64,000 nucleotides of DNA from Herbidospora daliensis (GTDB lineage: Bacteria; Actinomycetota; Actinomycetes; Streptosporangiales; Streptosporangiaceae): NCBI RefSeq assembly GCF_001570585.1, contig NZ_BBXF01000004.1, positions 496,001 to 560,000 on the forward strand, read 5' to 3'. The notes under the pieces are model-generated. The model was given only the letters and a program-made list of their open reading frames with translations, did not search any database and was not told where the DNA came from. This document shows positions 33,348 to 45,634 of this stretch, in pieces (position 1 is the stretch's first letter; each line of letters begins with the position of its first letter). Both the position numbers and the translations under genes were made by a program.

Positions 33348-34550
33348 ATGCACATCGACCTCGTCGACATGGATCGGTACGCGGCCTCCGGCGCGCCCCA
33401 CGACCAGTTCGCCTGGTTGCGGGCCAACGCCCCGGTGTTCCGCCACGAGGGCGGTCAGAGAGAGGGCTGGCCGCCTTTCTGGGCGCTGACCAAACACTCC
33501 GACGTGGTGCACGTGTCGCGGCGCAGCGACCTGTTCTCCTCCCACCAGCGGCTGGCGCTCTTCCCCGAGCCGGGCGAGGCGGAGATCGAACTCCAGCGCC
33601 TGATGATGCTGAACCAGGACCCGCCGGAGCACACCCGCCGCCGCTCGCTGGTCAACCGCGGCTTCACCCCGCGCGCCATCTCCAAGCTGGAAGACCACAT
33701 CCGCGACATCTGCCACGAGCTCATCGACGAGGCCCAGGCGAAGCCGAACGTCGACTTCGTCCGCGACATCGCCGCGCCGCTGCCCCTGTACGTCATCTGC
33801 GAGCTCCTCGGCGCGCCCGTCGAAGACCGGGGCAAACTCTTCGAGTGGTCCAACCGCATGATCGGCATGGACGACCCCGACTACTCGGTCAGCCCCGAAC
33901 AGGGCCAGATGGCGGCGATGGAGGTCTACGCGTACGCCAACCAGCTGGCCGAAGCCCGCCGCGACGACCCCCGCGACGACCTGGTGACCAAGTTGCTCCA
34001 GCCTGGCGACGACGGTGAGGAGCTGAGCGTCGAGGAGTTCGACCTGTTCGTGCTGCTCCTCGTGGTGGCCGGCAACGAGACCACCCGCAACGCCGCCTCC
34101 GGCGGCATGCTGGCCCTCTTCGAGCACCCCGACGAGTGGGCCAAACTCGTCGCCGACCAGTCGGTGGCCAAGACCGCCGCCGACGAGATCGTCCGGTGGG
34201 TGGCCCCCGTCAACCTGTTCAAGCGCACCGCCACCCAGGACATGGAGCTGCGCGGCCAGCAGATCAAGGAAGGCGACAAGGTCGTCATCTTCTACGCGGG
34301 CGCCAACCGCGACGAGGAGGTCTTCGCCGACCCGGAGGTCTTCGACGTCACCCGCGACCCCAACCCCCAGCTCGGCTTCGGCGGCGGCGGCGCCCACTTC
34401 TGCCTCGGCAACCACCTGGCCAAGATGGAACTCCGGGTGCTCTTCGAGGTCCTGTCGGAACGCGTCCCGAAAATCCAGCAGTCAGGCGAAGCCCGCCGTC
34501 TCAGGTCCTACTTCATCAACGGCATCAAAGACCTGCCGGTCTCCCTCTGA
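33348..34550 (+). CDS. Cytochrome P450, steroid C26/27-hydroxylase type
   Basis: A 400-residue bacterial P450: oxygen-binding helix VAGNETTRNAASGG, ExxR motif in EIVRWVAP, and the haem loop FGGGGAHFCLGNHLAKME with the Cys ligand near residue 352. The C-terminal SYFINGIKDLPV resembles the CYP124/125/142 clan, which oxidise the terminal methyl of sterol side chains. An exact KstR-type box upstream supports this; exact subfamily cannot be fixed by eye. Electrons could come from the small ferredoxin at 40613. Confidence 0.83.
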   Translation: MHIDLVDMDRYAASGAPHDQFAWLRANAPVFRHEGGQREGWPPFWALTKHSDVVHVSRRSDLFSSHQRLALFPEPGEAEIELQRLMMLNQDPPEHTRRRSLVNRGFTPRAISKLEDHIRDICHELIDEAQAKPNVDFVRDIAAPLPLYVICELLGAPVEDRGKLFEWSNRMIGMDDPDYSVSPEQGQMAAMEVYAYANQLAEARRDDPRDDLVTKLLQPGDDGEELSVEEFDLFVLLLVVAGNETTRNAASGGMLALFEHPDEWAKLVADQSVAKTAADEIVRWVAPVNLFKRTATQDMELRGQQIKEGDKVVIFYAGANRDEEVFADPEVFDVTRDPNPQLGFGGGGAHFCLGNHLAKMELRVLFEVLSERVPKIQQSGEARRLRSYFINGIKDLPVSL

Positions 34551-34559
34551 CCCCGCCAC

Positions 34560-34591
34560 CGGTGCGGGGCCGGCCGACCGGCCCCGCACCG
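34560..34591. terminator. Bidirectional terminator between convergent genes
   Basis: Perfect 14-bp inverted repeat (34560-34573 with 34578-34591, CGGTGCGGGGCCGG) with a 4-nt CCGA loop between the P450 and the convergent secreted-protein gene. Confidence 0.75.
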
Positions 34592-34598
34592 TCTCCCG

Positions 34599-35051
34599 TC
34601 AGCAGGCGGTCCGGGCGACGCGAGTGCCGGGGAGCGCCACGGCGGCCAGAGTCGGGAAGGTGTACGTGGCCTCGGTGACGGCGAAGGTGTAGACGCCCGG
34701 CCCGTCGCAGCGGAAGGTGAAGATCTGGTCCAGGGTGGCCTGGCCGTTCAGATCACTGGTCGTGTGGAAGGGCCCAGAGGCGACGAGGGCGTCATCCTTG
34801 CGGATCTCGAACCGTCCCCTGACCGAGCAGGGGGTCAACGTCCAGAAGGGCAGAGAGGTCCGGCAGTGTGACGTGAGGCTGCCGTGCGGCCAGTCGCCGT
34901 CCTCCAGGCAGAGCCGCCAGAGCACACTCGACCCGGTCTTCCGGGTGTCGATCTCCGCTCCGCAGCCGGAAGTCTGAGCCTGGGCCGGCGACGCCGGCAG
35001 CGCCAAGAGCGCCGAACCGAGCACGACCAGCCACAGAGTGTATTTTCTCAT
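34599..35051 (-). CDS. Small secreted cysteine-containing protein, unknown function
   Basis: A 150-residue precursor beginning MRKYTLWLVVLGSALLALPA with a signal peptide ending near AQAQ. The mature part has several Cys (GCGAEI, WRLCLEDG, SHCRT, TPCSVRG, FRCDGPG, final RTAC), suggesting disulfides in a beta-rich domain. No family recognised. ATG 35051 was chosen because the signal peptide starts there, though no good ribosome site is seen. Its upstream region holds the composite hairpin element. Confidence 0.65.
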   Translation of the reverse strand: MRKYTLWLVVLGSALLALPASPAQAQTSGCGAEIDTRKTGSSVLWRLCLEDGDWPHGSLTSHCRTSLPFWTLTPCSVRGRFEIRKDDALVASGPFHTTSDLNGQATLDQIFTFRCDGPGVYTFAVTEATYTFPTLAAVALPGTRVARTAC

Positions 35052-35145
35052 GCGCAAAAAGTAGCGATCCCGGCTACCCGTTTCCCGAGAAGTCGTTTCC
35101 GGCACGCCCAAGAACCTGAGTCATATGGGGGACTTGCTCGCCCGC

Positions 35146-35211
35146 GCCCGTGCCTGGACTGAGGAGCGCAGGAGAGCGAAGCGAACCGGAGCGACGAGGG
35201 AAGGCACGGGC
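35146..35211. repeat. Composite element copy 1, long hairpin with conserved 48-nt loop
   Basis: Stem GCCCGTGCC (35146-35154) pairs perfectly with GGCACGGGC (35203-35211). The 48-nt loop (35155-35202), beginning TGGACTGAGGAGCGC and ending GACGAGGGAA, is 47/48 identical to the loop at 45494-45541, while the stem differs by two compensating pairs. Located downstream of the gmd gene on the minus strand. Confidence 0.8.
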
Positions 35212-35227
35212 AAGAAGCGGGCGAGCC

Positions 35228-35300
35228 GCCGCGCCGAAGGCGCGGCCATCAAACACCTCGGGCGAGCCGCCGCGCTGAAGGCGCGGCCATCAAACACCTG
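35228..35300. repeat. Composite element copy 1, two tandem short hairpins
   Basis: Two 41-bp tandem units. Each holds an 8-bp hairpin with a GAA loop: GCCGCGCC-GAA-GGCGCGGC (35228-35246) and GCCGCGCT-GAA-GGCGCGGC (35269-35287), followed by CATCAAACACC. Related hairpins with other stem bases are at 45568 and 45605. Confidence 0.75.
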
Positions 35301-35309
35301 CGGCCGCTC

Positions 35310-36305
35310 CTACGGCCAGCTGGACTCCTGCGGGTCGCCGCCCTCGCTCAGTAGGCGCAGGTCCGACTCCACCATCATCGCGATCAGTTCTTCGAACGGT
35401 ACCGTCGGCTCCCAGCCGAGCTGGGTTCTGGCCTTCTTCGGGTCGGCGCAGAGCAGGTCGACCTCCGCCGGGCGGTGGAGTGCCTGGTCGGCGATGACGT
35501 AGCGCTCCCAGTCGAGGCCGGCCGCGGAGAAGGCGGCCTCGACGAGTTCGCGGACCGACTGGGTGCGGCCGGTGCCGATGACGTAGTCCTCCGGGTTGGC
35601 GGCCTGGAGCATCAGGTGCATGGCCCGGACGTAGTCGCCCGCGAAGCCCCAGTCACGCCGGGCCTCCAGGTTGCCGAGGCGGAGTTCGGTCGCCAGGCCC
35701 AGTTTGATGCGGGCCGCGCCGAGCGACACCTTGCGGGTGACGAACTCGGCTCCCCGGCGGGGGGACTCGTGGTTGAACAGGATGCCGGAGACGGCGTACA
35801 TGCCGTAGGACTCGCGGTAGTTCTGGGTCAGGAAGTGGCCGTAGGCCTTGGCCACGCCGTAGGGCGAGCGCGGGTGGAACGGGGTGACCTCGGTCTGCGG
35901 GGTCTCGCGGACCTGGCCGAACATCTCCGACGACGACGCCTGGTAGAAGCGGATCTCGCCGCCGCGCGAGGAGCAGACGCGGATCGCCTCCAGCATGCGG
36001 AGCACGCCCATGCCGGTGACCTCGGCGGTCAGTTCGGCCTGCTCCCACGACATGGGCACGAACGAGATGGCGCCCAGGTTGTAGACCTCGTCGGGGCGGA
36101 CCTTCTCGACGGCCGAGATGAGCGACCCCTGGTCGAGCAGGTCGCCGCGGACGAGGTGGATGTCCTTGGGCAGCCGGGCGACGCGCGGGTTCGACTGGCC
36201 GCGGACCAGCCCCCACACCTCGTAGCCTTCGGCGAGCAGGTGTTCGGCGAGATAGGAGCCGTCCTGACCGGTGATGCCCGTGATCAACGCGCGTCTGGCC
36301 AACAC
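35310..36305 (-). CDS. gmd: GDP-mannose 4,6-dehydratase
   Basis: Converts GDP-mannose to GDP-4-keto-6-deoxy-mannose, the precursor of activated fucose, rhamnose-type or other 6-deoxysugars. The 331-residue extended SDR has ALITGITGQDGSYLAEHLL, YQASSSEMFGQVRETPQ with the catalytic Ser/Glu, YGVAKAYGHF, and the substrate motif NHESPRRGAEFVTRK. GTG 36305 follows GGAGGA; TTG 36302 is an alternative. No second-step enzyme (fcl/rmd) is adjacent. It is divergent from the glycosyltransferase cluster and has a KstR-type box 65 nt upstream. Confidence 0.9.
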   Translation of the reverse strand: MLARRALITGITGQDGSYLAEHLLAEGYEVWGLVRGQSNPRVARLPKDIHLVRGDLLDQGSLISAVEKVRPDEVYNLGAISFVPMSWEQAELTAEVTGMGVLRMLEAIRVCSSRGGEIRFYQASSSEMFGQVRETPQTEVTPFHPRSPYGVAKAYGHFLTQNYRESYGMYAVSGILFNHESPRRGAEFVTRKVSLGAARIKLGLATELRLGNLEARRDWGFAGDYVRAMHLMLQAANPEDYVIGTGRTQSVRELVEAAFSAAGLDWERYVIADQALHRPAEVDLLCADPKKARTQLGWEPTVPFEELIAMMVESDLRLLSEGGDPQESSWP

Positions 36306-36370
36306 GTCCTCCTCCGTACGCGAACTTTGTAGGCGAATGTACCCCGAAGGCCCTGACCGGGCCGCATTCG

Positions 36371-36384
36371 TAGAACACGTTCCA
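36371..36384. promoter_or_regulatory. KstR-type operator between gmd and the glycosyltransferase
   Basis: TAGAACACGTTCCA, identical to the site before the P450 and an exact fit to TnnAACnnGTTnnA, in the divergent intergenic region. Control of sugar-nucleotide genes by a steroid repressor would be unexpected. Confidence 0.55.
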
Positions 36385-36458
36385 CCGAACGGCATTCCAC
36401 CCGCCTAGGCTAAGGTCATCTCAGGTGCCCCTACAGGGGCGGAAAGGGGTGCATCGGG

Positions 36459-37685
36459 GTGGAGAGGCTGCGCGTCGCACTGCTGTCCTATCGCAGCAAA
36501 CCCACCTGCGGCGGTCAGGGGGTGTATCTCCGCCACATCACCCGCGAGCTCGTGGCGATGGGCCACCACGTCGAGGTGTTCTCCGGTCAGCCCTATCCCG
36601 AGCTCGACGAGGGCGTGATCCTCAACAAGATCCCGAGCCTCGACCTCTACCGGGACGAAGACCCTTTTCGCACCCCCAAGCTGGGCGAATACCGCGACTG
36701 GATCGACCTTCTCGAAGTCGGCACGATGTGGACGGCCGGCTTCCCCGAGCCGCTGACCTTCAGCCTCCGGGCCTACCGTGAGCTCAAGGCGCGCATCGGC
36801 GACTTCGACGTCGTACAGGACAACCAGACGCTCGGATACGGCGTGCTGGGCATCCAGAAGCACTTCCCGGTGGTGGGCACGATCCACCACCCCATCAGCG
36901 TCGACCGGCGGATCGAGCTGGAGGCCGCCGAAGGCTGGGCCAGGCTCTCCAAGCGGCGCTGGTACGGCTTCGTCCGCATGCAGGCCTACGTCGCCGCGCG
37001 GCTCAAGCCGATCCTGACCGTCAGCGAGTCGTCGGTGGCCGACATCCACCGCGACTTCCGCGTGCCGCAGTCGAACCTGCGCCTGATCCCGCTCGGCGTG
37101 GACACCCGGTTCTTCCATCCCCGCCCCGAGCTGCCCAGGCGCAAGGGCTCGATCGTGGCGGTGGCCAGCGCCGACTCCCCGATGAAGGGGGTCGCGACGC
37201 TGCTGCGCGCGGTCGCCAAGCTGTCCACCGAACGCGACGTGAACCTGACCGTCGTCAGCAAGCCGACCCCCGGCGGCCCGACCGAGCAGCTCGTGGCCGA
37301 GCTCTCGCTGCACGACCGGGTGCGGTTCGTCCACGGCATCACCGACGACGAGCTCGGCGAGCTGATCGCCACCTCCGAGGTCTCCGTCGTGCCGTCCCTG
37401 TACGAGGGCTTCTCGCTCCCCGCCGTGGAGCACATGGCGTGCGGGACCCCGCTGATCGCGTCCCGGACCGGTGCCCTGCCCGAAGTGGTGGGCGACGCCG
37501 CGGTCCAGGTCGCGCCGGGCGACCCCGAGGAGCTGGCCGCCACGTTGCGCCGCCTGATCGACTCCCCCGACCTGCGGGAGGAGTACGGCAAACGCGGCTT
37601 CGACCGCGTCATGGAGCGTTACGCGTGGCCCGTCGTGGCGCGCAAGACCGTTGAGGCCTACCGCGAGGCCATCGCCGCGCGCTGA
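36459..37685 (+). CDS. GT4-family glycosyltransferase
   Basis: A 408-residue retaining GT-B glycosyltransferase: KPTCGGQGVYLRHITREL (glycine-rich acceptor loop) at the N-terminus, VASADSPMKGVATLLRA, and the EX7E donor motif in PSLYEGFSLPAVEHMACGTP. It probably uses a nucleotide sugar, perhaps one derived from GDP-mannose given the adjacent gmd. First gene of a plus-strand set with a methyltransferase and a toroid protein; start GTG 36459. Acceptor unknown. Confidence 0.82.
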   Translation: MERLRVALLSYRSKPTCGGQGVYLRHITRELVAMGHHVEVFSGQPYPELDEGVILNKIPSLDLYRDEDPFRTPKLGEYRDWIDLLEVGTMWTAGFPEPLTFSLRAYRELKARIGDFDVVQDNQTLGYGVLGIQKHFPVVGTIHHPISVDRRIELEAAEGWARLSKRRWYGFVRMQAYVAARLKPILTVSESSVADIHRDFRVPQSNLRLIPLGVDTRFFHPRPELPRRKGSIVAVASADSPMKGVATLLRAVAKLSTERDVNLTVVSKPTPGGPTEQLVAELSLHDRVRFVHGITDDELGELIATSEVSVVPSLYEGFSLPAVEHMACGTPLIASRTGALPEVVGDAAVQVAPGDPEELAATLRRLIDSPDLREEYGKRGFDRVMERYAWPVVARKTVEAYREAIAAR

Positions 37686-37705
37686 CCCGAAGGGTTCCCC
37701 GAGAG

Positions 37706-38419
37706 ATGCTGACCGTCGATTTCGCCCGGCTGCCCGTCGGGCCCGGAGACCGTGTGCTCGACCTGGGCGCCGGTGGCGGCAGGCACGCCTTCGAGGTGCT
37801 GCGCCGGGGCGCCGACGTGGTCGCCTTCGACCTCGACCCGGCCGAGATGGAGTCGGTGGGGGCGATGTTCGCGGCCATGGACAAGGAGGGCGAGGTCCCC
37901 TACGGGGCGACCGGCGAGACCGTGGTCGGCACCGCGCTCGACATGCCGTTCCCCGACGCGTCGTTCGACCGGGTGATCGCCTCGGAGGTGCTGGAGCACA
38001 TCCCCGAGGACATGGCGGCGATGAAGGAGATCGTCCGGGTGCTGAAGCCCGGCGGGCTGCTGGCCGTGACGGTGCCGGCCTTCCTGCCCGAACGGGTCTG
38101 CTGGGCGCTCTCGGAGGCCTACCACACGGCTCCCGGCGGGCACATCCGGATCTACACGCTGGCGGAGCTGTCGGCGAAGCTGAAGTCGTCGGGCCTGGAG
38201 ATCGGCGACCACCACCACGCCCACGGGCTGCACACGCCCTACTGGTGGATCAAGTGCGCGGTCGGGGTCGACAACGACGACCACCCGATCGCCAAGGCCT
38301 ATCACGAGCTGCTCGTGTGGGACATCATGAAGCGCCCCGCCGTCACCCGGATCGCCGAGCAGATCCTCAACCCGGTGATCGGCAAGAGCGTGGTCCTCTA
38401 CGCCCGGAAGCCCGCATGA
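37706..38419 (+). CDS. Class I SAM-dependent methyltransferase
   Basis: A 237-residue Rossmann-fold methyltransferase with SAM motif VLDLGAGGGRHAFEVLRRGA, acidic ribose-binding FDLDPAEM, DMPFPDASFDRVIASEVLEH and VLKPGGLLAVTVPA. It sits 20 bp after the glycosyltransferase and overlaps the next gene by 4 bases (ATGA), so it likely methylates a glycosylated intermediate of that pathway. Substrate unknown. Confidence 0.8.
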   Translation: MLTVDFARLPVGPGDRVLDLGAGGGRHAFEVLRRGADVVAFDLDPAEMESVGAMFAAMDKEGEVPYGATGETVVGTALDMPFPDASFDRVIASEVLEHIPEDMAAMKEIVRVLKPGGLLAVTVPAFLPERVCWALSEAYHTAPGGHIRIYTLAELSAKLKSSGLEIGDHHHAHGLHTPYWWIKCAVGVDNDDHPIAKAYHELLVWDIMKRPAVTRIAEQILNPVIGKSVVLYARKPA

Positions 38420-39468
38420 TCCCGGCGGTGCCCGGGGTCGTGACCGGCGACGAGATCGCCGCCACCGCCGCCAGCATCGCCGCCGTCCAGCTCCCCGACG
38501 GGGGTGTGCCGTGGCCCGAGGGCCACGTCGACGCGTGGAACCACGTCGAGTGCCTGATGGCCATGACCGCCGCCGGCCTGCGCGAGGCGTCGGCGCGCGG
38601 CTGGGAGTGGATCAGGCGGCACCAGCGGCCCGACGGCTCGTGGCCGATGAAGGTGCTCGACGGTGAGCCGCTCGAAGACCGGGGCGAGTCGAACCACGCC
38701 GCTTACGTGGCCGTCGGGGTCTGGCACGACCTGCTGGTCACCGGCGACGAGGCGTTCGCGCGGGAGATGTGGCCGGCGGTCGGCCGGGCCCTCGACTTCG
38801 TGACGGGCCTGCAGACCCGGCGCGGCGAGATCGTGTGGGAGGCGGCCGCCGGCTCCTACGCGCTGCTGACCGGCTGCTCCTCGGTCTACCAGGGCCTGCG
38901 CTGCGGGGTGCGGCTGGCCGAGCGCCTGGGCGACCCCCGGCCCGACTGGGAGCTGGCCGCCGACCGGTTGGGCCACGTGCTGCGCGAGCACCCCGAGGCG
39001 TTCGCCGACAAGAGCCGCTTCTCGATGGACTGGTACTACCCGGTGCTCGGCGGCGCCCTGCGCGGCGAGCGGGCGCTGCGCCGCCTCGACGACGACTGGG
39101 ACCGCTTCGCGGTGGCCGGTCTCGGCATCCGCTGCGTCTCCGACCAGCCGTGGGTGACCGGCGCCGAGTCGTGCGAGCTGGTGCTGACCCTCGACGCGGT
39201 CGGCGACGACGACCGGGCCCTGAAGGTCTTCACCGAGATGCAGCACCTGCGGCACCCCGATGGGGGCTACTGGACGGGCTGGCAGTTCGTGAACGAGCGC
39301 CACTTCCCGAACGAGCGGTCGGCGTACACGGCGGCGGCGGTGATCCTGGCCGCCGACGCGTTGTCGCGCACGACCCCGGCCAACGGCGTCTTCCGCGACG
39401 CGGGCGGCTTCGCCGAAGACCGCGCCTCCGACGAATGCGGCTGCCAGCGGGCCGCCTCGCCCGCCTAG
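38416..39468 (+). CDS. Alpha/alpha-toroid protein (prenyltransferase/glucosidase-like), unknown function
   Basis: A 350-residue protein of repeated helix pairs (WEWIRRHQRPDGSWPMKVLD, AGSYALLTGCSSVYQGLRCG, TEMQHLRHPDGGYWTGWQFV) with QxxDGxW-like motifs typical of alpha/alpha barrels, the fold of squalene cyclases, prenyltransferases and some glycosidases. No DxDD cyclase motif is seen, so terpene cyclisation is doubtful. A C-terminal CGC cluster (ASDECGCQRAA) is unusual. Translationally coupled to the methyltransferase. Confidence 0.65.
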   Translation: MIPAVPGVVTGDEIAATAASIAAVQLPDGGVPWPEGHVDAWNHVECLMAMTAAGLREASARGWEWIRRHQRPDGSWPMKVLDGEPLEDRGESNHAAYVAVGVWHDLLVTGDEAFAREMWPAVGRALDFVTGLQTRRGEIVWEAAAGSYALLTGCSSVYQGLRCGVRLAERLGDPRPDWELAADRLGHVLREHPEAFADKSRFSMDWYYPVLGGALRGERALRRLDDDWDRFAVAGLGIRCVSDQPWVTGAESCELVLTLDAVGDDDRALKVFTEMQHLRHPDGGYWTGWQFVNERHFPNERSAYTAAAVILAADALSRTTPANGVFRDAGGFAEDRASDECGCQRAASPA

Positions 39469-39478
39469 ACCCGCTCCC

Positions 39479-40612
<1,134 letters not shown>

Positions 40613-40613
<1 letters not shown>

Positions 40614-40810
40614 TGCCGAAGGTCATTGTCGACTACCTCGTCTGTGAGGCCAACGGGGTCTGCGTGGGTCTGGCCCCTCAGGTCTTCGACCTCGACGACG
40701 ACGACAACCTGCACGTTCTGCTGGAAGAACCCCCCGCCGAGATGCTCGACCGGGTCAGGCACGCGGTCCGGTCATGCCCGAAGGCGGCACTTTCGCTCGA
40801 AGAAGAGTAA
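40613..40810 (+). CDS. Small 3Fe-4S-type ferredoxin
   Basis: A 65-residue ferredoxin with Cys at about 11 and 17 (VCEANGVCVG) and CP near the C-terminus (RSCPKAALS), the three-Cys pattern of ferredoxins serving bacterial P450s. Very acidic (FDLDDDDN). Encoded between two oxidoreductases in a presumed KstR-controlled operon; the P450 at 33348 is a plausible electron acceptor. No ferredoxin reductase is in the window. Confidence 0.88.
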
Positions 40811-40828
40811 AAACCACCGGAGGTTCCC

Positions 40829-41911
40829 ATGCGCGGCGCTCTGCTGCACACCATCGGCGCGGACAAGCTCGACATCCGCGACGACCTGACCGTCATCCCG
40901 GTCGGCCCGTCGGACGTCCGGGTCCGGATCAGGGCGACCGGCGTCTGCCATTCCGACCTGTCGGCCATCTCGGGGGTGCTCCCCCAGCCCGCGCCCCTGG
41001 TGCCGGGCCACGAGGGGGCCGGCGAGGTCGTCGAGGTCGGCGACCACGTGACGAGCGTCGCGCCCGGTGACCACGTGATCATCAACTGGACCCCCGCGTG
41101 CGGGTCGTGCCCGAGCTGCTCCCACGGCCAGCCGCACCTGTGCATGACCTCGGTCGTGCGCGGCTTCACCGAGCCCGGCTTCACGTTCGACGGCGGCAAG
41201 CCCGCCTTCGGCATGGCCGGCTGCGGCACCTGGGCCGAGGAGATCGTGGTGCCCGCCGGCGGCGCGATCAAGGTCGACGCCGACGTCCCGTTCGAGATGG
41301 CGGCCCTGATCGGCTGCGGCATCACCACAGGCGTGGGAGCCGCGCTGAACACCGCCAAGGTCCGCCCCGGCACGACGGTGGCCGTGGTCGGCTGCGGCGG
41401 CGTGGGCCTGTCGGTGATCCAGGGCGCCCGCATCTCCGGCGCGACCACGATCCTGGCGATCGACCCCCTGGAGTCGAAGCACGAGCTGGCCAAGAAGGTC
41501 GGCGCCACCCACGCCTGCACCCCCGACCAGCTCATGGACGCCATCACCACGCTGACCGGCGGCCAGGGCTTCGACTACGGCTTCGAGGTCGTCGGCAAGT
41601 CCCAGGCCATCATGACCGCCTGGCAGGCCACCCGCCGAGGCGGCGACGTGATCGTGGTGGGCGCCGGCGCGATGGACGACATGGTCCCCCTCAACGCCTT
41701 CAGCCTCCTGTTCGACGGCAAGAACCTCCTCAGTTCCCTGTACGGGGGAAGCGACGTCCGCCGCGACTTCCCGTTCTTCGCGGGGCTCTACAAGGCGGGC
41801 AAACTCGACCTGGAGAGCATGATCAGCTCCCGCATCCAGCTCACCGACCTGAACGACGCGGTGACGGCGTTAAAGGGTGGCGAGGTCCTCCGCCAGATCG
41901 TCCTGCTGTAA
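40829..41911 (+). CDS. Zinc-dependent alcohol dehydrogenase
   Basis: A 360-residue medium-chain dehydrogenase: catalytic zinc ligands in TGVCHSDLSAISG and PGHEGAGEVVEVG, structural zinc Cys cluster CGSCPSCSHGQPHLC, and NAD motif VVGCGGVGLSVIQGA. It probably oxidises an alcohol produced by monooxygenation, for example a sterol side-chain alcohol, to the aldehyde. Start ATG 40829 with GGAGG upstream, 18 bp after the ferredoxin stop. Confidence 0.9.
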   Translation: MRGALLHTIGADKLDIRDDLTVIPVGPSDVRVRIRATGVCHSDLSAISGVLPQPAPLVPGHEGAGEVVEVGDHVTSVAPGDHVIINWTPACGSCPSCSHGQPHLCMTSVVRGFTEPGFTFDGGKPAFGMAGCGTWAEEIVVPAGGAIKVDADVPFEMAALIGCGITTGVGAALNTAKVRPGTTVAVVGCGGVGLSVIQGARISGATTILAIDPLESKHELAKKVGATHACTPDQLMDAITTLTGGQGFDYGFEVVGKSQAIMTAWQATRRGGDVIVVGAGAMDDMVPLNAFSLLFDGKNLLSSLYGGSDVRRDFPFFAGLYKAGKLDLESMISSRIQLTDLNDAVTALKGGEVLRQIVLL

Positions 41912-41922
41912 CCGGCCATCCC

Positions 41923-41955
41923 GACGGCGGCGCCGCGTGCTCGGCGCCGCCCGTC
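41923..41955. terminator. Bidirectional terminator between convergent genes
   Basis: A 13-bp GC-rich stem with one bulged base (41923-41935 with 41942-41955) and a 6-nt loop. It overlaps the stop codon of the minus-strand small gene. Confidence 0.65.
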
Positions 41956-42223
41956 AGAGACCCCGCAACACGTCGGCCAGGTCGTCGCCGTAAGAGGCCC
42001 AGCAGGAGATGACGCCCGAGCCGTCCATCTCGCCGACGAGATATTCGCCGTCGCGCACCACGTACCGGCCGCCGACCATGATGATCAGCGACGGACGGAC
42101 CGGGGCGCCGTCCAGGAGAACCGGCGTGTCGAGCGGCAGCAGGACGGCGTCTTCGGCAACGGCGACCTCGGCGACGCGTGCCAGAGTCCAGCCCTCGGGG
42201 AGGCTGGGGTCGGGGGAAGCCAT
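41954..42223 (-). CDS. Hypothetical 89-residue protein
   Basis: Starts MASPDPSLPEGWTLARVAEV and contains PSLIIMVGGRYVVRDGEYLV and a Trp/Cys-containing CWASYGDDLADVLRGL end. ATG 42223 has GGAGG 5 nt upstream; an ATG at 42235 would add 4 residues. It is divergent from the ArsR-family sensor, and part of the sensor's putative operator lies between them. No family recognised; soluble by composition. Confidence 0.6.
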   Translation of the reverse strand: MASPDPSLPEGWTLARVAEVAVAEDAVLLPLDTPVLLDGAPVRPSLIIMVGGRYVVRDGEYLVGEMDGSGVISCWASYGDDLADVLRGL

Positions 42224-42256
42224 CGCGTCCTCCATTGATCGATCGACGATTCTGGA

Positions 42257-42281
42257 TATCATCGCACTATGGCGATTGATA
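42257..42281. promoter_or_regulatory. Putative operator of the CmtR-like sensor
   Basis: Imperfect inverted repeat TATCATCGC (42257-42265) and GCGATTGATA (42272-42281) spanning the sensor's start codon, the arrangement expected for ArsR/SmtB autoregulation. Confidence 0.5.
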
Positions 42282-42610
42282 GTCGTTGTGTCAGTGCCGA
42301 CATCGCGTCCGGCGTCGCCCCCGCCGCCGCGCTCTTCCACTCGCTCGCCGACGAGACGCGACTGCGGATCGTCCGGCGGCTCGCGGACGGTGAGGCGCGG
42401 GTGGTCGACCTCACCGGCGAGCTGGGGCTGGCGCAGTCCACGGTGTCCAAGCATCTGGCCTGTCTCCGGGGCTGCGGGCTGGTCGACTTCCGGACCGAGG
42501 GGCGGCAGTCGTTCTACGCGCTCACCCGCCCCGAACTGATGGACCTGCTCGCGTCGGCCGAGCTGCTGCTCCAGGCCGCCGGCCACGAGATCGTGTTGCG
42601 GCCCGCATGA
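42269..42610 (+). CDS. CmtR-like ArsR/SmtB metal-sensing repressor
   Basis: A 113-residue winged-helix repressor. LADGEARVVDLTGELGLAQS, then TVSKHLACLRGCGLVDFRTE, carries two Cys in the recognition helix (HLACLRGCGL), the arrangement of the Cd/Pb sensor CmtR (Cys57/Cys61). Metal binding would release DNA and derepress the downstream transporter. The coupled CDF gene (ATGA overlap) supports a metal-efflux pair. Confidence 0.82.
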   Translation: MAIDSRCVSADIASGVAPAAALFHSLADETRLRIVRRLADGEARVVDLTGELGLAQSTVSKHLACLRGCGLVDFRTEGRQSFYALTRPELMDLLASAELLLQAAGHEIVLRPA

Positions 42611-43206
42611 CGGCCGTCGCGGTCCGCCGGATCAGGTGGCTGGTCGGGGCCACCATCACGTACAACGTCGTCGAGGCCGCGGTGGCCCTCACGGCCGGGA
42701 CCGTCGCCTCGTCGGCGGCGCTCGTCGGCTTCGGGCTCGACTCGGTCGTGGAGGTCGCCTCGGCCACCGCCGTGGCCTGGCAGTTCTCCTCGGCCGACCA
42801 CGAACGGCGCGAGAAGACCGCGTTACGGGTCATCGCGGTGTCGTTCTTCGCCCTGGCCGCCTACGTCGCCTTCGACGCCGTCCGGGCGCTGCTGGGTGCG
42901 GGCGAGGCCGACCACTCCACCGTGGGGCTGGTGCTGGCGGGGGTGTCTCTGGTGGTCATGCCGGTGTTGTCGTTCGCGCAGCGCCGGGCGGCCAGGGAGA
43001 TCGGCTCGGCCAGCGCGCTGGCCGACTCCAAGCAGACCCTGCTGTGCACCTACCTGTCGGCCGTGCTGCTCGTGGGCCTGGCGCTCAACAGCCTCTTCGG
43101 CTGGACGTGGGCCGACCCGATCGCCGCCCTGGTCATCGCCGCCGTGGCGGTGAAGGAGGGCCGCGACGCCTGGCGCGGCGACGCCTGCGGCTGCTGCGCG
43201 AGCTAG
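42607..43206 (+). CDS. CDF-like cation transporter, membrane domain only
   Basis: A 199-residue membrane protein with about five or six helices and conserved-looking polar sites GFGLDSVVEVASATAVAW and LADSKQTLLCTYLSAVL, as in cation diffusion facilitators. It lacks the C-terminal cytoplasmic domain of full-length CDFs and ends in GDACGCCAS, a Cys cluster that could bind metal. Probably exports a divalent metal sensed by the adjacent repressor. Stop overlaps the convergent GNAT gene. Confidence 0.78.
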   Translation: MTAVAVRRIRWLVGATITYNVVEAAVALTAGTVASSAALVGFGLDSVVEVASATAVAWQFSSADHERREKTALRVIAVSFFALAAYVAFDAVRALLGAGEADHSTVGLVLAGVSLVVMPVLSFAQRRAAREIGSASALADSKQTLLCTYLSAVLLVGLALNSLFGWTWADPIAALVIAAVAVKEGRDAWRGDACGCCAS

Positions 43207-43661
43207 ACGGCGAACGAGATCCAGGTGTCGGGCGGCCGCCGTTCCTCCGTCCAGCCGGGCCCGGCGACCGTCGTGGCGACGTGCCGCCAGAAGTGCACGG
43301 CCGGCAGGTTGGCGTCCTGGAAGGCGACGTCCCAGGAACCCGGATGACGGGCGAGGACGTCCTGAACGGCCCGCAACCCCACACCCGAACGGCGGACCGC
43401 GCGCACGACGAAGAAGCTGTTCAGCACCCGCGTGGGCGCGTCCAGGGCCCGGACGAAGGCGAAGCCGAGCGGGGCCCGATCCCGTTCGATCAGGTAGGCC
43501 GCCCAGTGGGGGTCGCCGAAGGCGGCGTCGACGCGTTCACTGCGGAAGGTGCCGTCGGGACGGGGCACGACACCGGCGAACTCGGACATGTCATGGCGGA
43601 ACATGAGCCACAGGCGCTCGACCGTGGGCCGGTCGGCGGCGGTGGCGGGACGGACGTGCAC
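43203..43661 (-). CDS. GNAT-family N-acetyltransferase
   Basis: A 152-residue acetyltransferase: VHVRPATAADRPTVERLW at the N-terminus, LGFAFVRALDAPTRVLNSFF, and a GNAT acetyl-CoA region FFVVRAVRRSGVGLRAVQDV. I prefer GTG 43661 because AGGAG lies 5 nt upstream; ATG 43679 also reads in frame. An intrinsic-terminator hairpin with six U residues lies in its leader. Substrate unknown. Confidence 0.78.
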   Translation of the reverse strand: MHVRPATAADRPTVERLWLMFRHDMSEFAGVVPRPDGTFRSERVDAAFGDPHWAAYLIERDRAPLGFAFVRALDAPTRVLNSFFVVRAVRRSGVGLRAVQDVLARHPGSWDVAFQDANLPAVHFWRHVATTVAGPGWTEERRPPDTWISFAV

Positions 43662-43680
43662 GCAGGCTCCTGAGGGCATG

Positions 43681-43710
43681 AAAAAAGCCTCCCCGGCGCA
43701 CCGGAGAGGC
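43681..43710 (-). terminator. Terminator hairpin in the leader of the GNAT gene (attenuator candidate)
   Basis: In the minus-strand RNA a 10-bp stem (43701-43710 with 43687-43696) with one G-U pair and UGCG loop is followed directly by UUUUUU (43686-43681), 20 nt upstream of the GTG. The mismatch is a tolerated wobble only on this strand, which supports the direction. Confidence 0.65.
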
Positions 43711-43743
43711 GAATAATGGTCAAAGTATATCGCCCCAGCACAT

Positions 43744-43753
43744 ACATGCATGT
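43744..43753. promoter_or_regulatory. Palindrome ACATGCATGT in divergent promoter region
   Basis: Perfect 10-bp palindrome within a longer imperfect one, between the GNAT leader and the hypothetical gene at 43770, 7 bp before the latter's GGAGGAG site. Possible operator. Confidence 0.35.
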
Positions 43754-43769
43754 GTTCACTGGAGGAGCG

Positions 43770-44180
43770 ATGACCATGTCCACCCGGCCCGCCGACGACG
43801 GCGGCCTGGAGATCACCATCCGGCTGACCGCCGCCGAAACCGAGGCCATGGCGACCGAGACGCGGCTGATGGCCGAGGCGTTCGACAGTCACCTGTGGGT
43901 CCTGGGCATGCTCCGGACCGGCACCAACTCGCGCGATCCCGGCTCTCCCCCGCCCGTCCAGGGAGACTGGGCGACCGCGCTCTGGGCCGCCCACCGCCTG
44001 CCCCCGCGCCTGGACGCCATCAGGACCGCCGCCATCCGCGCCTTCATGGCCTCGGGCGGCAACGCCGAACGGCTGGCGAACCTGCTGCGAACCGACCCCG
44101 CCGCCGCCAGAGCCCTCTGGACCGAGGTGAAGGGGCAACCCCCCGGCGACTGGGAACGGTGGGCCGCCGGGGGATCGTAA
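43770..44180 (+). CDS. Hypothetical 136-residue helical protein
   Basis: Begins MTMSTRPADDGGLEITIRLT with a strong GGAGGAG ribosome site. The body is largely predicted helix (AAETEAMATETRLMAEAFDS, AIRTAAIRAFMASGGNAERL) and ends in a Trp-rich tail (GDWERWAAGGS). No catalytic motif or membrane segment; function unknown. Confidence 0.65.
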   Translation: MTMSTRPADDGGLEITIRLTAAETEAMATETRLMAEAFDSHLWVLGMLRTGTNSRDPGSPPPVQGDWATALWAAHRLPPRLDAIRTAAIRAFMASGGNAERLANLLRTDPAAARALWTEVKGQPPGDWERWAAGGS

Positions 44181-44238
44181 AACCCACCTTCGCCCCGTAT
44201 CGTCCCCCTCAGTGCTGTCGATCAAGGGAGGATCGGTT

Positions 44239-44625
44239 ATGTCCGCCGACGAGGCGCGCCGCGTCTTCGACGTCGTCGACGCGTTCGACCCCGACGAGTT
44301 CGTCAAGCTCCTGGCCGAAGACGCCACCATGCGCTTCGGCAACGCCGCCCCCGGCCAGGGCCGCGAGGCCATCGCCGCCGCCCTGCGCGGCTTCTTCTCC
44401 ACCATCGCGGGCCTGCGGCACCGCATCGTCCGCACCTGGACGACCGGAGCCGACACCGTCGCCGAAACCGAGGTGACCTACACCCGGCTCGACGACAGCG
44501 AGGTCGACGTGGTCGCGGTCTCGATCTGGACCAGAGGCGACGACGGCCTCATCACCGACTACCGCGTCTTCGTCGACCTGGCCCCCCTCTACTCCCCGCA
44601 GACCTCGGTGGTGACGACGATCTAG
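44239..44625 (+). CDS. SnoaL/NTF2-like small protein
   Basis: A 128-residue cone-fold protein: VVDAFDPDEFVKLLAEDATM, FGNAAPGQGREAIAAALRGF, VTYTRLDDSEVDVVAVSIWT and DYRVFVDLAPLY follow the nuclear-transport-factor-2/SnoaL pattern. Family members include isomerases, cyclases and binding proteins; no specific catalytic residues can be assigned. ATG 44239 has GGGAGG upstream. Its stop overlaps that of the convergent aldo/keto reductase gene. Confidence 0.75.
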   Translation: MSADEARRVFDVVDAFDPDEFVKLLAEDATMRFGNAAPGQGREAIAAALRGFFSTIAGLRHRIVRTWTTGADTVAETEVTYTRLDDSEVDVVAVSIWTRGDDGLITDYRVFVDLAPLYSPQTSVVTTI

Positions 44626-45449
44626 AACTCCTCGTGCGTGTCCGGGTCGAGGCGCACGGGCTTCCCGGTGTCGAGCGCCGTGACGGCCGCGACGTCGGCG
44701 GCGTCGAGGTGGAACCCGAAGAGGTCGATGTTCTCCCGCTGCCGCAGCGGATCCCCCGACTTCGGCACCACGCTGATCCCCCGCTCGACCAACCACCGCA
44801 ACACCACCTGCGAAGGCGTGCGCCCCACCCGCCGGGCGATCTCGACGATGACCGGATGCGCCAGGATCCCGGTGTTCCGCTCCAGCGGACTCCAGGCCTG
44901 CAGCACCGTCGGATCGCCCTGCGTGGCTTCAATATGCGCCGCCTGGGCGTGGGTAGGCGAAACCTGCCGCTGGTTCACGGCGGGATGCACCCCGGTCTCC
45001 TTGACCACGGCGTCGAGATGCTCAGGCGTGAAGTTCGACACCCCCACCGACCTGATGAGCCCCTCCCGCGCCAGTTCGAGCAGCGCGGCATAGGTCTCGA
45101 CGTACAGCCCCAGCCGAGGCAGCGGCCAGTGGATGAGATAGAGATCGACGTAGTCGAGCCCCAGCCGCTCCAACGACCCTTCAAGGGCGGCCCGAGCCTT
45201 GGCAGCCCCGTGGTCCGACCCGCGAAGCTTGGTCGTGACGAAGAACTCCTGCCGGGGCAACCCCGACTCGCGCATGCCGTCGCCGACGGCGGCCTCGTTC
45301 CCATAACTGGCGGCGGTGTCGAGCAGCCGATACCCGGCGTCGACCGCGGTCAGCACCGCATCGATGGCCGAACGGCCGTGCAGGGGGTAGGTACCAAGCC
45401 CGACGAGGGGCATCGGGTGCCCGGTGTTGAGAGTCACGTGACTAGACAT
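44622..45449 (-). CDS. Aldo/keto reductase
   Basis: A 275-residue NADPH-dependent reductase of the diketogluconate-reductase group: VGLGTYPLHGRSAID, catalytic DTAASYGNEAAVGDGM (Asp, Tyr), Lys in FVTTKLRG, His in YLIHWPLP, and cofactor site VVPKSGDPLRQRENID. Substrate unknown. A 12-bp palindrome AGTCACGTGACT (45432-45443) overlaps its first codons. The composite hairpin element copy 2 lies in its upstream region. Confidence 0.85.
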   Translation of the reverse strand: MSSHVTLNTGHPMPLVGLGTYPLHGRSAIDAVLTAVDAGYRLLDTAASYGNEAAVGDGMRESGLPRQEFFVTTKLRGSDHGAAKARAALEGSLERLGLDYVDLYLIHWPLPRLGLYVETYAALLELAREGLIRSVGVSNFTPEHLDAVVKETGVHPAVNQRQVSPTHAQAAHIEATQGDPTVLQAWSPLERNTGILAHPVIVEIARRVGRTPSQVVLRWLVERGISVVPKSGDPLRQRENIDLFGFHLDAADVAAVTALDTGKPVRLDPDTHEEF

Positions 45450-45484
45450 GACTCCATGGTCGTACGGGGGACGTGCGAGGCCGC

Positions 45485-45550
45485 GTCCGGGCCTGGACTG
45501 AGGAGCGCAGGAGAGCGAAGCGAACCGAAGCGACGAGGGAAGGCCCGGAC
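45485..45550. repeat. Composite element copy 2, long hairpin with conserved 48-nt loop
   Basis: Stem GTCCGGGCC (45485-45493) pairs perfectly with GGCCCGGAC (45542-45550). The 48-nt loop differs from copy 1 at one base, whereas the stem carries two pair changes (C-G to T-A, T-A to G-C) that keep pairing. It has the same order and orientation relative to genes as copy 1. Confidence 0.8.
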
Positions 45551-45567
45551 ATGAAGGCGGCCGAGCC

Positions 45568-45634
45568 GCCGAGCCGGAGGCGCGGCCATCAGACACAGGA
45601 GCCCGTCGTGCCGGAGGCACGACATAAAGACAGG
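45568..45634. repeat. Composite element copy 2, two short hairpins
   Basis: GCCGAGCC-GGA-GGCGCGGC (45568-45586, one mismatch) followed by CATCAGACACAGG, then GTCGTGCC-GGA-GGCACGAC (45605-45623) followed by ATAAAGACAGG. They match the copy 1 hairpins in size, loop and tail, with compensating stem changes. Confidence 0.7.

Follow-up and report, generated by a model that had tools for sequence, protein, structure and literature searches.

The stretch analysed here (the window) comprises 64,000 nucleotides (nt) of contig NZ_BBXF01000004.1 of the actinobacterium Herbidospora daliensis and carries two copies of a composite hairpin element, the parts of which are listed in Table 1 in whole-window coordinates. 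Each copy lies between two minus-strand genes, as an initial annotation of this DNA had stated and as gene calls from a codon-usage script, used throughout for gene positions, bear out, and is antisense to both. Three of the four flanking genes have a Pfam match; the gene at 34599-35051, beside copy 1, has none. The inner stem (P1), formed by GCCCGTGCC and GGCACGGGC in copy 1 and by GTCCGGGCC and GGCCCGGAC in copy 2, is perfectly paired in both, and the two stems differ by two pair changes, both compensated, around 48 nt in which the copies differ by a single base, all as first described. The 9-base-pair (bp) stem was placed and paired correctly, but the stem is really longer, since an outer arm is added to it: in copy 1 this arm is fully paired and parted from P1 by AAGAA on the 3' side, and in copy 2, by eye, it consists of 6 bp followed by two G/A mismatches, with ATGAAG as the bulge. 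Among the four 3' hairpins described as 8-bp stems, those at 35228 and 45605 are perfect, but by eye the eighth pair of the hairpin at 35269 is a T-G wobble and the hairpin at 45568 contains one A-G mismatch. The 48 nt taken for a fixed loop turned out not to be one loop: the ends, TGGACTGAGGA and GACGAGGGAA, are almost invariant across genera, and the middle is a variable apical hairpin (P2).

Motifs resembling GTCRTATG, like the one left of copy 1, were seen by eye upstream of many Herbidospora copies in a listing of 111 rows. An open frame runs along the plus strand of copy 1; conserved coding there is unlikely, as the length of the core is not constant from copy to copy and in-frame stops were seen by eye in some of them.

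Table 1. Parts of the two element copies in the window and the motif to their left
Feature	Position	Strand	Remark
Left motif GTCATATGG	35120..35128	+	From sequence
Copy 1 outer arm, 5' side	35136..35145	+	10/10 complementary
Copy 1 inner arm P1, 5' side	35146..35154	+	
Copy 1 conserved core strand TGGACTGAGGA	35155..35165	+	
Copy 1 variable apical hairpin P2, GCGAAGC tip	35166..35192	+	First P2 pairs by RNAalifold, rest by eye
Copy 1 conserved core strand GACGAGGGAA	35193..35202	+	
Copy 1 inner arm P1, 3' side	35203..35211	+	
Copy 1 bulge AAGAA	35212..35216	+	
Copy 1 outer arm, 3' side	35217..35226	+	
Copy 1 first 3' hairpin, GAA triloop, tail CATCAAACAC	35228..35256	+	
Copy 1 tandem repeat of outer arm, hairpin and tail	35259..35299	+	41-nt unit, 98% identical
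Copy 2 outer arm, 5' side, imperfect	45475..45484	+	By eye
Copy 2 inner arm P1, 5' side	45485..45493	+	
Copy 2 core strands and apical hairpin	45494..45541	+	
Copy 2 inner arm P1, 3' side	45542..45550	+	
Copy 2 bulge ATGAAG	45551..45556	+	
Copy 2 outer arm, 3' side	45557..45565	+	By eye
Copy 2 first 3' hairpin, GGA triloop, tail	45568..45596	+	One A-G mismatch
Copy 2 second 3' hairpin, GGA triloop, tail	45605..45634	+	Perfect 8 bp

Distribution and fold of the element

The element is a family. In the H. daliensis genome the core pattern, allowing up to three mismatches, has 9 matches against 0 for a backward control, a 201-base query has 14, and a covariance model seeded on 24 hand-picked copies has 11 with E <= 1.3e-4. 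Across the seven Herbidospora genomes searched, all of which have matches, the model has 118 (11, 21, 16, 9, 17, 22 and 22, H. daliensis first); at least 7 of these were left out of the fetched loci, and the 97 loci fetched gave 114 aligned matches, 110 of which form the set used for gene context, the omitted four being three matches in two loci and the second strand of a palindromic copy. Within the family Streptosporangiaceae, 63 of 120 genomes have matches, the counts per genome being lower bounds because at most 28 candidates were scored in each. Under strict filters, 3 of 296 genomes evenly sampled across the phylum have matches, H. daliensis included, and the element is thus patchy outside its family. 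A pattern scan of a collection of 84,980 species returned at least 118 stretches, every one listed being actinobacterial, with Kribbella, Virgisporangium, Actinophytocola, Gordonia, Catellatospora and Streptomyces among the genera of the matches listed. Streptomyces copies in L285, L289 and L301 align to the model at positions 5-97 only, the 3' hairpin being absent, and L285 holds two copies in tandem, 117 bases apart. Plasmid and phage records gave no match to one 176-base query from copy 1. That no named family covers the element, as the initial annotation supposed, agrees with Rfam release 15, which has no match at gathering threshold in the window; at E <= 1, five loci drew a single eukaryotic microRNA model, which scored 30.2 bits where its threshold is 200. 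Word searches in the full text of open-licence papers, judged by titles and the starts of abstracts, did not find a description of the element.

A typical copy is about 130 nt long, and its GA-rich strand is predicted to fold into an outer stem and P1, which form a two-part long stem with a bulge of 5-6 nt, a nearly invariant, purine-rich internal loop made of UGGACUGAGGA and GACGAGGGAA, the apical hairpin P2, often with a C-GNA-G tip, and usually at least one 3' hairpin of the form C-GNA-G. Each of 21 core positions agrees with the consensus in 91-100% of 159 distinct copies outside Herbidospora, an agreement that arises partly by construction, the search itself having demanded near matches. 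The apical stem varies freely: by eye it is a perfect 13-bp stem in Thermomonospora (L201) and takes other forms in L196 and L263. In a structural model the core strands can stack as C-G, U.G, tandem G.A/A.G, G-C and a further tandem G.A/A.G, followed by P2. In one subfamily (L137, L140, L141, L144 and L154) one core strand has an extra C and GGAGGAGGG replaces GACGAGGG on the opposite strand, a change that the flipping of a base pair within the conserved loop could explain. Two copies are rearranged: L153:2093-2183 has lost the loop and apical hairpin, leaving a short hairpin, and in L139:2001-2162, from H. yilanensis, the apical part runs opposite to its flanks and the model therefore matches both strands, which suggests recombination between palindromic arms.

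Covariation was judged against shuffled and slid controls, with kinship among copies disregarded. The 24 hand-picked copies score 0.317, against 0.098 when shuffled and 0.039-0.078 when slid, and 19 of their 33 pairs show changes on both sides. In 111 model matches outside Herbidospora (108 distinct), aligned by fitting to the model and drawn from 98 of the 144 loci L158-L301 together with L032 and L034, 34 of 36 pairs are double-changed and the score is 0.513 against 0.118 for shuffled input. From a MAFFT alignment of 30 hand-picked copies, RNAalifold rebuilds P1, the first P2 pairs and the 3' hairpin, with 17 of 21 pairs double-changed; the outer stem is missing from its fold, in which C-U in one core strand is paired with G-G in the opposite one. 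The covariance-model search proposed at the outset thus brought many copies with covarying stems, which agrees with the early suggestion of a selected structure or a palindromic mobile repeat as opposed to simple duplication; the element is a structure under selection and, at the same time, a dispersed repeat. Of the formula "fixed loop, variable paired stem", the covarying stem stands, but conservation is confined to the strands of the internal loop and does not extend over the full 48 nt.

Change at orthologous sites bears on the same point. Flank comparison sorted the 110 Herbidospora copies into 34 clusters, 27 of which hold at least two species, several species having inherited many of the copies at a common site; two of the 27 each merge two neighbouring sites, and six rows were dropped before pair-sites were counted. 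The 24 unmerged orthologous groups counted contain 648 pair-sites, of which 552 are constant, 39 fully compensated, 17 changed by wobble only and 40 affected by a broken pair; with the two merged groups added, the counts become 587, 53, 17 and 45. Gene conversion between copies could contribute to the compensated changes. The site between rplW and rplB (L23 and L2 by Pfam) is occupied in all seven Herbidospora genomes, and there the arms differ between species yet pair; two species show wobbles, and some pairs are broken in G006.

Folding strand and position relative to genes

Wobble pairs point to the strand that folds. Copies were taken as in register when at least 6 of 8 P1 pairs were Watson-Crick, which removed 45 of 269 copies from a first set (32/138, 12/102 and 1/29) and 5 of 79 from an Acrocarpospora set. 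Outside Herbidospora and Kribbella, P1 of 101 in-register copies contains 49 G-U and no A-C pairs, and the 132 unfiltered copies contain 74 and 23, both counts omitting three Herbidospora copies and one spurious match in a Kribbella locus. In Herbidospora, 90 distinct stem sets, counted after 10 of 114 rows had been dropped, hold 41 G-T and 15 A-C, and 74 in-register Acrocarpospora copies hold 21 G-U and 3 A-C. Since G-U far exceeds A-C in in-register stems outside Kribbella, the GA-rich strand is, on this sequence evidence, the predicted folding strand there.

These counts bear on an explanation that dispenses with selection, in which template switching during DNA replication keeps palindromes perfect and so mimics compensation. 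Rearrangements of the palindromic type do occur, namely the inverted apical part, the lost loop and, in G003, an ilvC site with a remnant that lacks the core, but template switching should treat the two strands alike and would give no preference for G-U over A-C (49 against 0, and 41 against 15 in Herbidospora), nor would it hold two internal-loop strands nearly invariant across orders, and we regard it as very improbable.

In the first set, with eight or nine copies of unresolved upstream gene set aside, 145 copies sense to the upstream gene contain 64 G-U and 1 A-C, and 42 antisense copies outside Kribbella contain 3 and 0; by distinct arm pairs, G-U occurs in 39 of 85 sense and 3 of 23 antisense (p = 0.004).

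Almost all copies lie between genes. In Herbidospora, 109 of 110 overlap a called gene by 60 nt at most; none of 164 copies in loci L158-L301, seven of which are Herbidospora loci, is embedded in a called gene and two overlap one partly; one in-register Acrocarpospora copy is flagged inside a gene. Where the downstream gene is antisense in Herbidospora, 23 of 55 copies run into that gene's end, with an overlap of 1-14 nt at the close of the match to the model. Some tails include the start codon of a sense gene that follows, as with a MerR-family (hspR-like) gene beside dnaJ in L206. Outside Herbidospora, Acrocarpospora and Kribbella, the upstream gene has the same sense as the element in 82 of 93 in-register copies, with four unresolved copies set aside and tandem and related copies counted separately. 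An element fills the rplK-rplA gap in four records outside Herbidospora and in five of the seven Herbidospora genomes. In Kribbella, the start codon of the left gene abuts the left edge of the element in many copies (by eye). Kribbella copies (L186 and others) often begin with GTCAT or GTCAC, the reverse complement of an ATG or GTG start, with a similar motif after the tail, and on the reverse strand of L186 and other Kribbella loci a Shine-Dalgarno-like GGGAGG precedes that start codon.

Copies found in every gene orientation could be read as a family of trans-acting small RNAs, each with its own promoter. A scan for one promoter type found no consensus promoter at either window copy, however, and the 23 copies that overlap the end of an antisense gene suggest close fusion with neighbours, so that this explanation is, of those considered, the most remote.

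Gain, replacement and possible spread

At two of the sites compared, relatives have a plain hairpin in place of the element. Left of copy 1, near 34550-34600, two genes converge on a site where H. daliensis and two other genomes (G001, G006) have a GC-rich hairpin; G002 and G003 hold the element there without it. Between rplW and rplB in Acrocarpospora the element is present in G033 and G107 and a simple hairpin in G133, G147 and G146. At ilvC (ketol-acid reductoisomerase by Pfam), H. daliensis and G005 hold the element between the stop codon and the native hairpin, G003 has an outer-stem remnant, and four other genomes have nothing of the element in the 300 bases compared. In the core-less G003 remnant (L304) the outer arms show one compensated pair change relative to full copies. 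For the five of seven genomes without a full element at ilvC, the junctions aligned too poorly for a target duplication to be called.

These sites also bear on the possibility that the element is a dispersed intrinsic transcription terminator. At the convergent site it stands in the position of the GC-rich hairpin of relatives, which the scan did not flag as terminator-like, and in several other genera most copies lie downstream of, and sense to, a gene. At the two window copies, however, a U-run is lacking and scans around them found no terminator-like site; copies occupy the rplW-rplB and rplK-rplA gaps, and the element at ilvC still has the native hairpin beside it. A terminator is accordingly an improbable account of the family.

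Elements are nested in elements at six loci (L189, L202, L209, L233, L249 and L273), two of which (L209, L249) show three 5' halves in a row; by eye the nested copies have edges CC...ACAG, with about four target bases missing in several. Many Kribbella copies are flanked on both sides by GTCAY, the two sides not always being identical. When 931 proteins from loci L158-L301 were clustered, ABC transporters, short-chain dehydrogenases and rplK/rplA, as judged by eye, made up the largest clusters, and no transposase was conspicuous as a recurrent autonomous partner among the 25 clusters listed. The Y1 (PF01797) transposase occurs in 10 of 41 genomes overall and in 9 of 28 genomes of a second panel, including four of five Acrocarpospora; it is absent from the H. 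daliensis genome and from five of the six other Herbidospora. In the second panel it is present in 7 of the 17 genomes that carry the element and in 2 of the 11 that do not (p = 0.25), and with family genomes pooled in, in 14 of 34 and 4 of 19 (p = 0.23).

One alternative explanation is a miniature single-stranded-DNA transposon of the IS200/IS605, PATE or REP/RAYT-like kind, in which a transposase would read hairpins on one strand and effects on mRNA would be incidental. It would account for strand-specific folding, nested insertions, the few distinct arms in Acrocarpospora (12 arm pairs in 39 copies and 12 in 31) and the presence of Y1 in most genomes of that genus, where, moreover, the wobble bias is independent of gene orientation and fits selection on the element's own strand. 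Nevertheless, Y1 is missing from H. daliensis and nearly all other Herbidospora and shows no clear association with the element, and compensated changes continue at orthologous sites, where selection for movement only predicts decay. A transposon of this type is therefore a serious but rather unlikely alternative.

Interpretation and significance

The interpretation we favour, and consider by a small measure probable from the sequence comparisons, is that of a dispersed, non-coding, structured element of Actinomycetota that is mobile and that, when transcribed, forms a structure at mRNA 3' ends or between cistrons. In this scheme the element would spread as a mobile element and, where transcribed, would act as an intercistronic or 3'-end RNA structure able to replace ordinary hairpins; it would probably set mRNA stability or processing, with the invariant internal loop as a putative binding or cleavage site for a host factor.

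Several results weigh against this interpretation. As to movement, clean target-site duplication was not found at the sites compared, and neither the Y1 survey nor the clustering of neighbouring genes found a partner enzyme. As to a role in RNA, the function at mRNA ends is proposed from the two sites with replaced hairpins and from position. The wobble bias is reversed in Kribbella (1 G-U and 6 A-C in 28 in-register copies), and all 28 of these copies are antisense to the left gene, as both window copies are to their neighbours. The two window copies are alike in orientation, as first noted; Herbidospora sites overall are near random (SS 11, SA 11, AA 9 and AS 5 of 36 by our reading, with S for sense and A for antisense), and so are Acrocarpospora copies relative to the upstream gene (39 sense, 31 antisense, 4 unresolved). 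It had been predicted beforehand that wobbles would track the orientation of flanking genes, and this failed in Acrocarpospora (G-U in 10 of 39 against 9 of 31 copies, p = 0.79); because the orientation dependence was not reproduced there, the claim is limited to folding of the GA-rich strand outside Kribbella. As to whether the element is real at all, the DNA-folding energy of single copies is not significant (z -0.5 to -0.7), and support for it is comparative.

Mobility and a folded structure are both features of bcr1, a repeat of other hosts. The element resembles it in being a small dispersed folding repeat, compared here by description (bcr1 is named in PMC2267715), and the same holds for NEMIS/Correia, RUP and CIR, small dispersed non-coding repeats of other hosts whose transcripts fold, as they are described in PMC2229807. 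The ERIC (IRU) sequences of enterobacteria, for which that source reports terminal inverted repeats with TA termini and an orientation-dependent effect on mRNA stability, are likewise small, dispersed and intergenic, and fold when transcribed (PMC2229807). By that description of ERIC, the present element is set apart by its phylum, by a conserved part that is an internal loop, by nested copies that suggest non-TA edges and by the separate C-GNA-G hairpin that follows. The REP and BIME sequences, described in PMC3733652 as extragenic palindromes lying mostly downstream of genes and thought to act as RNA, share with it the extragenic palindromic unit and hairpin units that may repeat. Unlike a REP, described there as 20-40 bp long with a GTAG or CGTC tag, the element is a composite of about 130 nt in which two stems are combined with an internal loop that hardly varies, and unlike REP/RAYT systems it occurs in several genomes without a Y1 transposase. 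By analogy, its likeness to ERIC, NEMIS, bcr1 and REP is one of kind, not of membership.

The small folded repeats compared here belong to other phyla, and this element is found in several actinobacterial orders. A more far-reaching proposal, unlikely as it stands, is that it constitutes a transposable RNA module, whose nearly invariant, purine-rich tandem-G.A loop would be a putative docking or cleavage site for a factor, delivered to many mRNA ends and junctions and wiring unrelated genes into one regulon; if true, that regulon would include ribosomal-protein and chaperone operons. The element sets its almost invariant internal loop in fast-covarying stems and stays under structural constraint at core-gene junctions such as that between rplW and rplB, and for this reason a common post-transcriptional factor or mobilising enzyme may be fished for with one defined bait.

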